From the NCBI GenBank assembly GCA_031292575.1, contig JARLGX010000032.1, positions 1 to 64,000 of the forward strand: 64,000 bases of DNA, read 5' to 3'. The notes below the pieces were generated by a model that had not been told where the DNA came from, did no database searches, and saw nothing but the letters and a program-made list of their open reading frames with translations. Shown here in pieces: positions 39,855 to 43,846 of this stretch; the first letter of the stretch is position 1, and the number at the start of each line of letters is the position of its first letter. This stretch comes from Paludibacter sp. (GTDB lineage Bacteria > Bacteroidota > Bacteroidia > Bacteroidales > Paludibacteraceae). Position numbers and translations under genes: made by a program.

Positions 39855-40844
39855 TTATTTTTTGTAATACGATTTTACAATCTCTTCCATCACATAACTT
39901 GTCCTTGCTGCCGAATACATGGTGCTGACACATTCATTTTCGCCCCGCAGAGTTTCAACCACTTGTTTTATCAGAAAAAACGAGATGTTTTCAGGATTCT
40001 GGAAACTAAATCTTTCTGTACCATTTTGTGTTATTAACTCCACGTCGCCTTTGTCAAAGCATGGAAATTTAATTTTACCATTCATCCCTACTATTTCAAT
40101 GCTATCTTCTTCCGATTGTTTATCAACGACAAAACACCAGCTTCCGGTTCCAACGACCCCTGAACCAAAATTAAAAACCGCAGAAACCGTATCTTCAGCC
40201 TGATAATATCCGGCTATATTACGGGCAATTCCACTGACATTTATAATTGCTCCAAATACAAAATCAAGAAAATCGAACTGGTGCGATGCCAAATCATAGA
40301 AATGACCTCCACCTCCAATTGCGGGATTTACATGCCAATGTTGCTTGTTTTGAAACCGATCCTGCTCACCAAAAGCTTTATGTAGCTTGACATGTACAGA
40401 TAGTGGCTTTCCAATTACATGAGTATCAATTATCTCTTTCACTTTCAGAAAAGCCGGAAGCGTGCGACGGTAATACGCCACAAAAAGTGGCATTCCTGTT
40501 TCTTCTGATACCCTGATCATTTCCCTGCACTCGGCATAATTCTTTGCCATAGGCTTTTCGACATAAACAGGCTTACCTGCCTTCATAACTTCGATGGCAT
40601 ACGATGCATGCGAATCAGGGGGCGTGGCTACATATACGGCATTTACTTCGGTATCACTAATCAGGTCAAGACCATCTGTATAAAATTTTGGAACATTATG
40701 GCGCTTCGCATAATCCTGAGCTAAAAACTCATTACGCCTCATAACAGCCACAAGTTTTGAGTGTTCAACTTTATTAAATGCAGGTCCGCTTTTAAGTTCA
40801 GTAACATTGCCACACCCAATTATTCCCCAATTTATTTTTTTCAT
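39855..40844 (-). CDS. Gfo/Idh/MocA-family sugar dehydrogenase
   Basis: The 329-residue protein has an N-terminal Rossmann domain (INWGIIGCGNVTELKSGPAF). It also has the catalytic block PVYVEKPMAKNYAECREM with Lys, and a C-terminal domain with GGGHFYDLASHQFDFLDFVFG. The substrate is probably a sugar or sugar acid, since the gene sits between pdxB and the LarA-like gene in a hexuronate operon. It cannot be pinned down from sequence alone. Confidence 0.88.
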   Translation of the reverse strand: MKKINWGIIGCGNVTELKSGPAFNKVEHSKLVAVMRRNEFLAQDYAKRHNVPKFYTDGLDLISDTEVNAVYVATPPDSHASYAIEVMKAGKPVYVEKPMAKNYAECREMIRVSEETGMPLFVAYYRRTLPAFLKVKEIIDTHVIGKPLSVHVKLHKAFGEQDRFQNKQHWHVNPAIGGGGHFYDLASHQFDFLDFVFGAIINVSGIARNIAGYYQAEDTVSAVFNFGSGVVGTGSWCFVVDKQSEEDSIEIVGMNGKIKFPCFDKGDVELITQNGTERFSFQNPENISFFLIKQVVETLRGENECVSTMYSAARTSYVMEEIVKSYYKK

Positions 40845-40885: not shown

Positions 40886-42175
40886 TTAGTATTTAAATCT
40901 TTCTTTAAACGCCCACAAACCCAAGGCGGGATTTGATATGTAAAAGATTTCTTCCCCATTAGGCAAGGTATTATACCCTTCTTTCAAGCCATCAAAATTA
41001 TACTTCGTCTTCATCTTATCAATGTCAGCATATTTAAAACCAACACTTTCAATTTCCTGTCGCGTAAGATTTCCGGTTTCTTTTCCGGGGCAATAGGTTA
41101 TGTTAAATCTTCCTTCGGACGAACCGTGAATAAGATGCGCAGCTGCACTCAGGTTATTTCTCAAATCTTCATTCTCGTCACAGGCTTTAAGTGTCTGAGG
41201 TGTTCCAAAATAACCGTATTTACGAATAAGGCGGTCAATTTCTTTGTCTTCGCCAAATTCTTTCAAAGCCGGAGCCAACACAATCAGTTCACCACCATCG
41301 TCAATAGCCATTCGTGTACGATAAATCGATTTATTGCCAAGCCATGTGCTCTTAAATTCAGTTGGATCGAGATAAACCAGTACTTTTTTCAACGGTTTGT
41401 CCAACATCTCAAAGTTAACCAACAAAGCCAATTTTGCTGCTTTGTCGAACACTTCAAAATCATCACCAATAAACAAACCACGGCATTTTATTTTTCCATC
41501 TGTTTTATCCAATCCAACTACGGTTTGCACATACACAATCGGCAAATTATTAGTAAAATGTTCCGAAGCATAATTAAAAATACGCCGTACCGGTGTATCA
41601 GCGTGCCCCATCATGCGTTCCATACCATAAGCTGCACCGACAAAATGGCTTTTGTTTATTCCTTCAACACCACCCGTACCTACAAAGACATTCTTGTTGT
41701 AATTGGCCATACCCACTACTTCGTGAGGAACAACCTGACCAATAGACAAAATTAAATCGAAATTACCTTCCAAAAGTAGTTTATTTACCTGAGCCGGCCA
41801 AGGAAATTCCACTGCTCCACCCGAAACTTCTTTCACAAATTCTGCCGGTACAATTCCAACAGTCACCACATCATTGCGCCAATCGTGTTCGCGAATAAGT
41901 GTAGCAGGCATTGTTCCAAACATGTGCGATATCTGATGGTCAGTCATTGCTGTGTGTGTGCCCAAAGCCGGCAATACATCTGTTAAAGCTTCGCCATAAT
42001 ACTGCCATGTAAACTCTGTCAGTTCACCGGCACGACTTGGTAAGCGTGTATAGTCGGGAGGAATAGCAAGCACTTTGTGCTTCTTTCCCATCTTTTCCAA
42101 CGCTTCAAAAAGACCTTTTTTCAGGTCATCGGCGTTAAGTTCGAGGTCTGTTGAACCAATTGAATAGTACATCAT
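40886..42175 (-). CDS. LarA-superfamily (DUF2088) protein, nickel-pincer racemase-like
   Basis: The 429-residue protein resembles lactate racemase LarA. The N-domain has IPPDYTRLPSRAGELT, close to the pyrophosphate/nucleotide-like PDxTRP loop. ALGTHTAMTD carries the first active-site His, and VVPHEVVGM the second. NYNKNVFVGTGGVEGINKSHF carries the Lys and His expected to hold the pincer cofactor. LarA homologues include racemases and epimerases of several 2-hydroxy acids. In a uronate operon an epimerase or racemase of a sugar acid is plausible. No larB, larC or larE cofactor genes are in the window. Confidence 0.8.
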   Translation of the reverse strand: MMYYSIGSTDLELNADDLKKGLFEALEKMGKKHKVLAIPPDYTRLPSRAGELTEFTWQYYGEALTDVLPALGTHTAMTDHQISHMFGTMPATLIREHDWRNDVVTVGIVPAEFVKEVSGGAVEFPWPAQVNKLLLEGNFDLILSIGQVVPHEVVGMANYNKNVFVGTGGVEGINKSHFVGAAYGMERMMGHADTPVRRIFNYASEHFTNNLPIVYVQTVVGLDKTDGKIKCRGLFIGDDFEVFDKAAKLALLVNFEMLDKPLKKVLVYLDPTEFKSTWLGNKSIYRTRMAIDDGGELIVLAPALKEFGEDKEIDRLIRKYGYFGTPQTLKACDENEDLRNNLSAAAHLIHGSSEGRFNITYCPGKETGNLTRQEIESVGFKYADIDKMKTKYNFDGLKEGYNTLPNGEEIFYISNPALGLWAFKERFKY

Positions 42176-42188
42176 ATTCTGTTATGTA

Positions 42189-42218
42189 TTAGGCGAAGGC
42201 TTAGGCTTAGGCTTAGGG
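42189..42218. repeat. hexamer array, left arm
   Basis: Five consecutive 6-bp units, three of them TTAGGC, one GAAGGC and one TTAGGG, in perfect 6-bp phase. Confidence 0.9.
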
Positions 42219-42233
42219 TGAGATTTAATTTAA

Positions 42234-42599
42234 TTATTTTTCTAAATAATGAATCAACGCATTTATTTCTTCAATTAACTTTTTATATCGTGTAATTAGA
42301 CTTTCGCTTGTTTCAATGGGTAAATATTTCTGATTTTCAGCAACCAATATTTGGCTCATTGATTCATAAGCACTTCCTCTTGCTATTTTGTAAAAACGAG
42401 TTTTATCTTTTGGTTCAAATCTTCCATAACCTTCTGCTAAATTATGAACAACTGAATTTGCAGCACGTTTTAATTGGTCAGTAAGTGCATAACGTTCTTC
42501 GGAAGGAAATTTCTTTATTAAATGATATACTTCAACAAGCAAACTGAATGACTGTTGCCAAACGCTCATATCCCGAAAATCATTGAATTTCTTATCCAT
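42234..42599 (-). CDS. four-helix-bundle S23/IVP-like protein
   Basis: The 121-residue protein fits the S23 ribosomal-RNA intervening-sequence family: FRDMSVWQQSFSLLVEVYHLIKKFP, YALTDQLKRAANSVVHNLAEGYGR, FYKIARGSAYESMSQI. It is a soluble four-helix bundle, related in fold to the Avd accessory protein of diversity-generating retroelements; no retroelement is present here. Its function is unknown. It is inserted in the same orientation as the uronate operon and bounded by inverted hexamer arrays. Confidence 0.9.
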   Translation of the reverse strand: MDKKFNDFRDMSVWQQSFSLLVEVYHLIKKFPSEERYALTDQLKRAANSVVHNLAEGYGRFEPKDKTRFYKIARGSAYESMSQILVAENQKYLPIETSESLITRYKKLIEEINALIHYLEK

Positions 42600-42646
42600 A
42601 AAACAGTTTTTCTGATATTAAGTTTTTCTTCACTTCACTTTCAATA

Positions 42647-42676
42647 GCCTAAGCCTGTGCCTAAGCCTGTGCCTAA
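42647..42676. repeat. hexamer array, right arm
   Basis: Five 6-bp units alternating GCCTAA and GCCTGT, in perfect phase. It is the inverted counterpart of the array at 42189-42218 and touches the kdgK stop codon. Confidence 0.9.
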
Positions 42677-42677
42677 G

Positions 42678-43754
42678 TTACCTCTTCACTCTCGCATTTC
42701 CGCCCCAGATACTCCAGATTTGGTCTTCGTCAGCAGGTTGTGCATAGTCGGTTAAGAATGTGGTTGCCAATGCACCAGAAGCCCAACCGAATTGTGCCCA
42801 TTTTTCTGATTCCCACCCTTTCAGGATAGCGTAAAGCATACCACCCACAAAACCATCGCCACCGCCAATTCGGTCAAGCACATTGATTTTACGTGGTTCA
42901 ATCACATTCCAGGTTTCTCCATCAAGCATAATAGCACCCCAAAGATGTTCGTTGGTGCTGATTACCTGACGCAATGTAGTTGCATAAACCGAAGCATTGG
43001 GGAAAGCCTGTTTTACACGTCCAATCATACCCTTGAACCCTTCAATTTGGGCTTCAATGCCTTTTCCTCCTGCTTCAGGGCCTTCAATACCCAAACAAAG
43101 CTGGAAATCTTCTTCATTCCCAATTAAAATATCAGACACAGAAGCAATTTCAGTAAAAATATCGCGTAATTCCTTGTCACGACCTTTCCAAAAAGAAGCA
43201 CGGTAGTTTAAATCAAATGAAATGCGTGTTCCTGTTTTTTTAGCGTAACGGGCCAATTGCAGACAGAATTCGCTTGTTTCGACTGATAAAGCAGCAATTA
43301 ATCCGGATAAATGCAAAATCTGAACACCTTCTTTTTCAAAGATACGGCCTAAATCAAAATCTTTTACATTCAATGTTCGTCCTACTTCACCGGCACGGTC
43401 GTTCAACACCCGTGGTCCTCTTGAACCGAAGCCACTATCAGCAATATTAAACTGATGACGATAGCCCCAGGGATCGCCCTGAGCTACTTCGGGTCCTTCA
43501 TAATCCATGTGGCGGCTTTTCAGATCACTTTTAATCATTTGTGCAATCGGACTGTCTTTCACGAAAGTAGTCAATACTTTTACCGGAAGTCCCAGGTAAG
43601 AGGAAATACTGGCAACATTTGTTTCGGCACTCGAAACCTCCATTTGAAATAATTTGCTGCTCTGAACAGGTTGTCCATTTACAGGCGTAATGCGAACACC
43701 CATACTGGTGGCTACCATTAATGAGTATTTAAAATCTTTTTTTAGTGTTATCAT
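42678..43754 (-). CDS. kdgK: 2-dehydro-3-deoxygluconokinase (PfkB family)
   Basis: The 358-residue sugar kinase phosphorylates KDG to KDPG. PfkB features are the sugar-binding region SSAETNVASISSYLGLPVKVLTTF, FDLNYRASFWKGRD, ILIGNEEDF, and the C-terminal ATP/anion-hole motif DRIGGGDGFVGGMLYAIL with the catalytic Asp near residue 298. It is slightly longer than average. It follows uxuA, the enzyme that makes its substrate. The IVS-like element begins right after its stop. Confidence 0.93.
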   Translation of the reverse strand: MITLKKDFKYSLMVATSMGVRITPVNGQPVQSSKLFQMEVSSAETNVASISSYLGLPVKVLTTFVKDSPIAQMIKSDLKSRHMDYEGPEVAQGDPWGYRHQFNIADSGFGSRGPRVLNDRAGEVGRTLNVKDFDLGRIFEKEGVQILHLSGLIAALSVETSEFCLQLARYAKKTGTRISFDLNYRASFWKGRDKELRDIFTEIASVSDILIGNEEDFQLCLGIEGPEAGGKGIEAQIEGFKGMIGRVKQAFPNASVYATTLRQVISTNEHLWGAIMLDGETWNVIEPRKINVLDRIGGGDGFVGGMLYAILKGWESEKWAQFGWASGALATTFLTDYAQPADEDQIWSIWGGNARVKR

Positions 43755-43764
43755 GATTTATTTA

Positions 43765-43800
43765 TTAGTTGATTGGTTAATTCGCTAATTAGTTAATTGG
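43765..43800. repeat. TTAATTGG-type tandem-like repeat
   Basis: The spacer between kdgK and uxuA holds three imperfect 12-bp units built from TTAGTT, GATTGG, TTAATT and AATTGG words. It resembles a simple-sequence array like the hexamer arms further along, but with a different unit. Confidence 0.4.
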
Positions 43801-43846
43801 TTTAAGTTGTTCCTTATACAATCAATCGTAAATATAAAATTGTAAA

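Follow-up and report, generated by a model that had tools for sequence, protein, structure and literature searches.

Putative IVS-like elements in operon gaps: S23 genes between inverted tandem arrays in Bacteroidota

The S23 gene described here follows a kdgK-like gene and precedes a larA-like one in their operon, has the same orientation as both and lies between two tandem arrays that are inverted to each other. Similar arrangements were found at many other operon junctions. Across the sequences compared we see S23 ORFs with inverted arrays set against the flanking stop and start codons, in sense orientation, at junctions whose content turns over between species and with array units shared across sites. 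We believe that this is probably a selfish element similar to the rRNA intervening sequences (IVS). Judging from the genomes examined, it would usually reside between the genes of an operon, depend on the host transcript and have a stem cut by RNase III. To our knowledge, S23 proteins have been without a function since their discovery in rRNA intervening sequences. The S23 genes examined here sit in mRNA junctions with a matching array as partner, a way of life that they have in common with another orphan family, GxxExxY. As at least one PF05635 (S23) match was present in 157 of the 198 Bacteroidota genomes drawn, the effects on operon expression could be wide. We found these S23 junction elements to be a large class that is undescribed in the open-licence literature searched (titles and abstract openings), where no account was found of S23 genes that lie between inverted arrays at mRNA junctions.

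The element in the kdgK-larA gap

The window (the whole 64,000-nt stretch analysed) contains on its minus strand, in this order, the genes for a kdgK-like PfkB kinase, an S23/IVP protein and a larA-like LarA-family epimerase, in an operon stretch that also has uxuA and a D-mannonate oxidoreductase gene (Table 1). The "kdgK" product is a PfkB-family kinase that scores under every curated NCBIfam cut-off listed, and "larA" codes for a LarA relative (NPN_18, putative Ni-dependent hexonate epimerase, 652 bits vs. a cut-off of 500). The S23 identity of the ORF in between, proposed in a first-pass annotation of the sequence, was borne out by profile search (PF05635, E 1.3e-32; TIGR02436, E 2.3e-31), and the nearest solved chain to the protein is 2gsc_A (E 1.1e-16).

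Table 1. Coordinates of the element and of its two host genes in the window.
Feature	Position	Strand	Remarks
Whole element, array to array	42189..42676	- (operon sense)	
5' arm of the sense RNA, TTAGGCACAGGC units	42648..42676	-	1 bp past the kdgK-like stop codon
3' arm of the sense RNA, inverted TTAGGC array	42189..42217	-	end 13 bp short of the larA-like ATG
S23/IVP four-helix-bundle gene, 121 aa	42234..42599	-	PF05635, TIGR02436
Upstream host gene, PfkB-family kinase (kdgK-like)	42678..43754	-	
Downstream host gene, LarA-family putative hexonate epimerase	40886..42175	-	

The same annotation had described inverted hexamer arrays around the gene, 1 bp after a stop codon and 13 bp before a start codon, and the coordinates agree with both distances. 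The two arms, of 29 nt each and 430 nt apart, are complementary at 25/29 positions (86%), and TRF reported TTAGGC with period 6 over exactly the 3' arm and a 12-nt double unit at 42647-42677. In the window genome, TTAGGCNNNGGCTTAGGC appears at the two kdgK-larA arrays only. The upstream flank scored 38 against the reverse complement of the downstream flank, a value reached by none of 2000 dinucleotide shuffles (maximum 27) and the best among the 57 genes of the window (runner-up 27). Folding of the minus-strand RNA, a check that the annotation had suggested, gave a predicted structure with the arms paired (z -2.77, 0/100 shuffles as stable). A known RNA family was rejected, as Rfam models had no match up to E 1 between positions 40500 and 44500. 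In the neighbouring uxuA-kdgK gap of this operon (43764-43802) there is also a gene-less 8-nt tandem array (ATTAGTTA), whose unit is similar to the GGTTGATT arrays of other S23 elements.

S23 genes and their arrays in the window genome and beyond

The window genome has seven PF05635 genes, one of them between leuC and leuD, with inverted flanks of differing sequence; the array units include GTGTTTC, GGTTGATT, TTAGGC, AACAGTA, GCCAATAT, and AAGAGGT. Six of the seven could be scored and reached 30 to 63 (control 95th percentile 25), including one (L002) for which the repeat search gave no inverted pair and yet the flank score was 37. The seventh (L001) contains an internal stop, has a 26-nt pair that is 77% complementary and is outside the 98 genes scored among relatives.

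PF05635 was present in 33 out of 40 related genomes, and the stronger matches of these 33 were surveyed: 129 S23 matches at the genus and order level, which gave 105 full-length genes, 98 of them with 200-nt flanks. Inverted pairing of a gene's own flanks exceeded the 95th percentile of mismatched flanks in 78/98 and the 99th in 40/98 (in direct orientation, 23 and 9, respectively), while in 20 of the 98 inverted flanks were undetected when own-partner and mismatched-flank scores were compared. The 95th percentile was also exceeded by 16 of 30 genes in a phylum-wide set and by 47/80 (7/80 direct) in a wider scan (80 loci retained from 548 relatives of a single S23 protein, not an even sample). 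L207 seems to be the element of L021 again, so that the sets overlap slightly. The inverted-array layout recurs across Bacteroidota, and among the loci of the wider scan are some from bins labelled Gastranaerophilales, Anaerolineales, Ignavibacteria, and Alphaproteobacteria; clear arms are found in some other-phylum bins (L237, L235, L240, L242, L253) and not in others (L257, L261, L263), with bin contamination possible.

The first-pass expectation that inverted arrays would flank S23 genes elsewhere was supported, and the idea of TTAGGC as the general unit had to be rejected, since other S23 genes bear other units and lineages differ in theirs. A specific target had been suggested too, and among the S23 loci we saw no single target site; a 23S motif was found near none of the S23 loci of the wider scan. 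Among 128 elements, the arms had a clear period of 7 nt in 41, of 8 nt in 10, of 9 nt in 5, of 12 nt in 2 and of 6 nt in 1, and no clear period in 69; any clear period was seen in 2/169 control segments. On the sense strand, the 5' arm shows a strong polarity, with G outnumbering C in 108 of the 128 elements and C outnumbering G in 6.

Another explanation would be that unrelated microsatellites happen to flank an S23 gene. In 464 kb of control sequence (the window and 400 kb from a single relative) a strict array detector did find 10 intergenic arrays, nine of them besides the window element, among them one inverted pair without S23; of the two S23 genes in that sequence, only one had an array called next to it. 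However, the inverted pairing between own partners is far above that of mismatched flanks, shuffles and other genes, and we find chance flanking hardly credible.

We also compared G-U pairs in the sense arms, which numbered 145 vs. 124 (p 0.22) at a score threshold of 26 and 89 vs. 53 (p 0.003) at 40. The sense excess is limited to the better arms and to one substitution class, so that mutation bias can account for it, and with three thresholds tried we dropped this asymmetry as a proof of RNA pairing.

Orientation, placement and turnover at operon junctions

Among the S23 elements for which both neighbours were called, 91/95 are co-directional with both, three with the downstream gene only, one with the upstream gene only, and none runs against both. 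Counted by site cluster (n = 50), the figures are 45, 3, and 1, plus one without an upstream call. Ordinary gene triples have the same sense as both neighbours in 215/334 cases and run against both in 15/334, a significantly weaker bias (Fisher p 1.5e-4 by site). Comparable values were obtained phylum-wide (28/30 co-directional with both) and in the wider scan (72/80, one against both). This near-exclusive sense orientation points to an element that requires the host transcript; the bias could also be mere selection for expression. The placement is tight as well. Relative to the end of the upstream stop codon, the 5' arm begins at -1 nt (median, n = 74), and the distance from the end of the 3' arm to the following ATG is 12 nt (median, n = 73). 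In 29/76 cases the upstream stop codon is wholly inside the arm. The element often provides the stop codon of the upstream gene, for example at L133, and this was seen for the stops of leuC and kdgK.

We have followed two junctions across species. The kdgK-larA junction (array types assigned by eye, cargo by HMM) was recovered from 30 of 38 positive genomes, 29 of them with kdgK in view. Three of these 29 species have S23 with TTAGGC arrays (L142 being split over two frames), nine have ATTTAC arrays around an S23 gene that belongs to a different subfamily (in L128 and L130 no complete ORF begins with ATG) and six have ATTTAC hairpins without a recognisable S23 gene, one of which (L145) retains the S23 ends by eye. 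The rest are one ACATAGG hairpin, two CCCCTAAA hairpins, three short palindromes, three short gaps, and two other long gaps. A quick gene tree with several weak branches requires at least 14 state changes for these 29 species, and in it the window species is sister (100% SH-aLRT) to a species with the other S23 subfamily at this junction. At leuC-leuD (loci from 30 of 47 positive genomes), four S23 genes and one shortened derivative have GCCAAT arrays, and 13 species have instead a GxxExxY gene, always in sense and with two types of unit (L293 is split over two frames and L301 is without an ATG-started ORF). There are also two CCCCTAAA hairpins and 10 empty gaps of 12-21 nt, and the fewest state changes on a similarly quick tree with several weak branches are 16. 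In the junction after larA we found S23 in 3/30 and GxxExxY in 2/30. The empty site in relatives that the first-pass annotation had called for is present at both junctions, as short gaps in three species at kdgK-larA and as the 10 empty gaps at leuC-leuD.

It is in this context that an operon-specific regulator, by which S23 and the stem would tune the expression of kdgK and larA, has to be considered. Purifying selection on S23 (see below) and the position tight against stop and start would fit such a role, but relatives have nothing, a hairpin without a gene or some other content at the kdgK-larA junction (at least 14 state changes among the 29 species), and S23 genes are found at ca. 50 unrelated sites, which makes this explanation very improbable.

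Gene-less hairpins recur around these junctions. Those of the GCCAAT/ATTGGC type are found in L006 (2478-2536) and in the gap after leuD of relatives; by eye, GCCAAT or ATTGGC follows leuD in 12/30 species, including species with an empty leuC-leuD gap. Other recurrent gene-less hairpins (CCCCTAAA...; GTAGAGACGCG...) appear at the same junctions in L149, L150, L153, L154, L292, and L298 and also in other gaps.

The second cargo, GxxExxY, matches TIGR04256 (E 1.3e-38) and PF13366 PDDEXK_3 (E 1.1e-39), belongs to the PD-(D/E)XK nuclease superfamily and was present in 21/30 genomes. For 26 of 30 genes flanks were available: 22/26 are co-directional with both neighbours and one is against both, and inverted flanks exceed the 95th percentile in 16/26 and the 99th in eight (direct, nine). 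These genes are like the S23 elements in their junctions, their sense orientation and their inverted array-like flanks, and unlike them in that the cargo is an unrelated protein of a nuclease superfamily. The occurrence of proteins unrelated to each other in a common setting speaks for the inverted arrays as the core of the element. The initial picture of an S23 element in an operon gap stands, but its scope was too narrow, as the junctions also accommodate another cargo family and hairpins without a gene. The S23-like setting of GxxExxY, in sense and between inverted arrays, can be seen in the leuC-leuD loci L287-L316.

Movement, mechanism and known systems

Pairs of loci without similarity in their outer flanks were used as a test of co-travel. 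An array unit is common, in the same orientation, to 29 of 34 different-site pairs (not independent of each other) with a protein similarity of at least 0.7, and in reversed orientation to 4/34, while it is common to 0.2% of the 3104 pairs with a protein similarity below 0.2. The overall correlation between protein and array is 0.107, a value reached by 0/500 permutations. As similar S23 proteins at different sites have array units in common, the array and its gene apparently travel with each other. Two cases look like moved copies: L124 and L123 are 89% identical over the gene and some of the 3' arm and have nothing alike outside (ca. 100 nt 5' of L123 are N), and L131 has two copies in neighbouring junctions of one operon, with 82% identity over 390 nt. 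Judging from a dN/dS of ca. 0.07 (30 of 56 pairs had measurable dS), the S23 ORFs are under purifying selection. Near-identical recent copies were not seen among the elements examined, and synonymous divergence is alike for elements and host genes and saturated (median ratios 1.06 and 1.00), so that recent movement is unsupported and dating the transfer by this means was given up.

A DNA-level transposable element might behave in much the same way. Its array ends would be bound by the cargo protein, S23 or GxxExxY, and be moved by a nuclease or recombinase that comes from the host or acts in trans, its gene-less hairpins would be MITE-like, RNA pairing would be incidental and the sense bias would reflect selection for cargo expression. 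Array units that track the protein lineage, hairpins that have no gene but share the units and lie at the same or adjoining junctions, the nuclease superfamily of GxxExxY and a window genome devoid of reverse transcriptase would all be in keeping with this, but there is no transposase-like gene inside the element, the ends vary between lineages and none of the 95 elements is antisense to both neighbours, a stronger bias than would be expected of most transposons. The gene-less hairpins show no orientation and so have no bearing on the sense rule. On balance we consider a DNA-level transposable element rather unlikely. A retroelement of the DGR/Avd type was discarded, since the 99.6% complete window genome had no reverse transcriptase (PF00078) match, in a search whose control was positive in 3 of 14 known genomes.

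The IVS-like selfish element that we favour would work as follows. In the polycistronic mRNA the arms would pair into a stem of ca. 30 bp with a loop of ca. 430 nt holding the S23 frame, and a double-strand RNase, by analogy with 23S IVS RNase III, would cut this stem and free the S23 message from the host operon transcript. The element would thereby be expressed from the host operon and the flanking messages would be released intact. If the analogy holds, both arms should be cut, the S23 message should be free and the messages on either side should be separate. Movement would be rare and at the DNA level, and S23 may bind its own array in the process, these two being the least certain steps. 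Speaking against this reading are the 20 of 98 S23 genes without inverted flanks, the failure to find near-identical recent copies, the missing reverse transcriptase and the S23 protein of Coxiella, which is apparently not made. A broader view, which we offer tentatively as possible and somewhat below even chances, is that a selfish class of very large size lives mainly in operon gaps, within polycistronic mRNA. In it, S23 or the GxxExxY nuclease would lie between inverted arrays recognised by the protein lineage, and the elements would be cut out as RNA and home to operon junctions; the 23S IVS would then be a relative that ended up in rRNA, and the orphan heptamer arrays would be gene-less remains.

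The closest known system is indeed the 23S rRNA IVS. According to passages of PMC4990558, that of Coxiella burnetii (helix 45) measures 428-444 nt, has a 28-bp stem and tandem heptamers ahead of the S23 start codon and is cut by RNase III, the S23 protein apparently not being made. As far as these passages go, the sense S23 ORF, the terminal inverted repeats, the size of ca. 430 nt and the tandem heptamers before the start are common to both, whereas the elements described here lie between two mRNA cistrons and have many array units and varied neighbours. The window element itself has the PF05635 ORF, inverted repeats capable of forming a stem and sense orientation to the host transcript, and lies between protein genes instead of in a 23S or 16S rRNA gene, so that the IVS-like layout outside rRNA noticed at the outset is upheld. 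Another parallel are the TAACTGA heptamer arrays of Beggiatoaceae, Cyanobacteria, and Bacteroidetes, spread without a known mechanism (PMC4679880). In the available text of that article they are also tandem 7-mers in gaps, often right before a start codon and spread over long range, but they are mostly direct, have one unit and no inverted partner is reported; the word S23 is absent from the same available text.

Compared with insertion sequences and MITEs, no transposase was found in the gene-bearing form, in which the S23 ORF stands alone between the arms. REP/RAYT and MITE-type palindromic repeats are likewise short gap hairpins that include gene-less derivatives of a gene-bearing form, but our element has neither RAYT nor transposase and its ends are lineage-specific tandem arrays. 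A viral origin was rejected, as no relative was found in viral contigs (one protein query) or in 50,697 phage records. Among plasmid records 40/72,556 matched S23, and most of the named genera were cyanobacterial.
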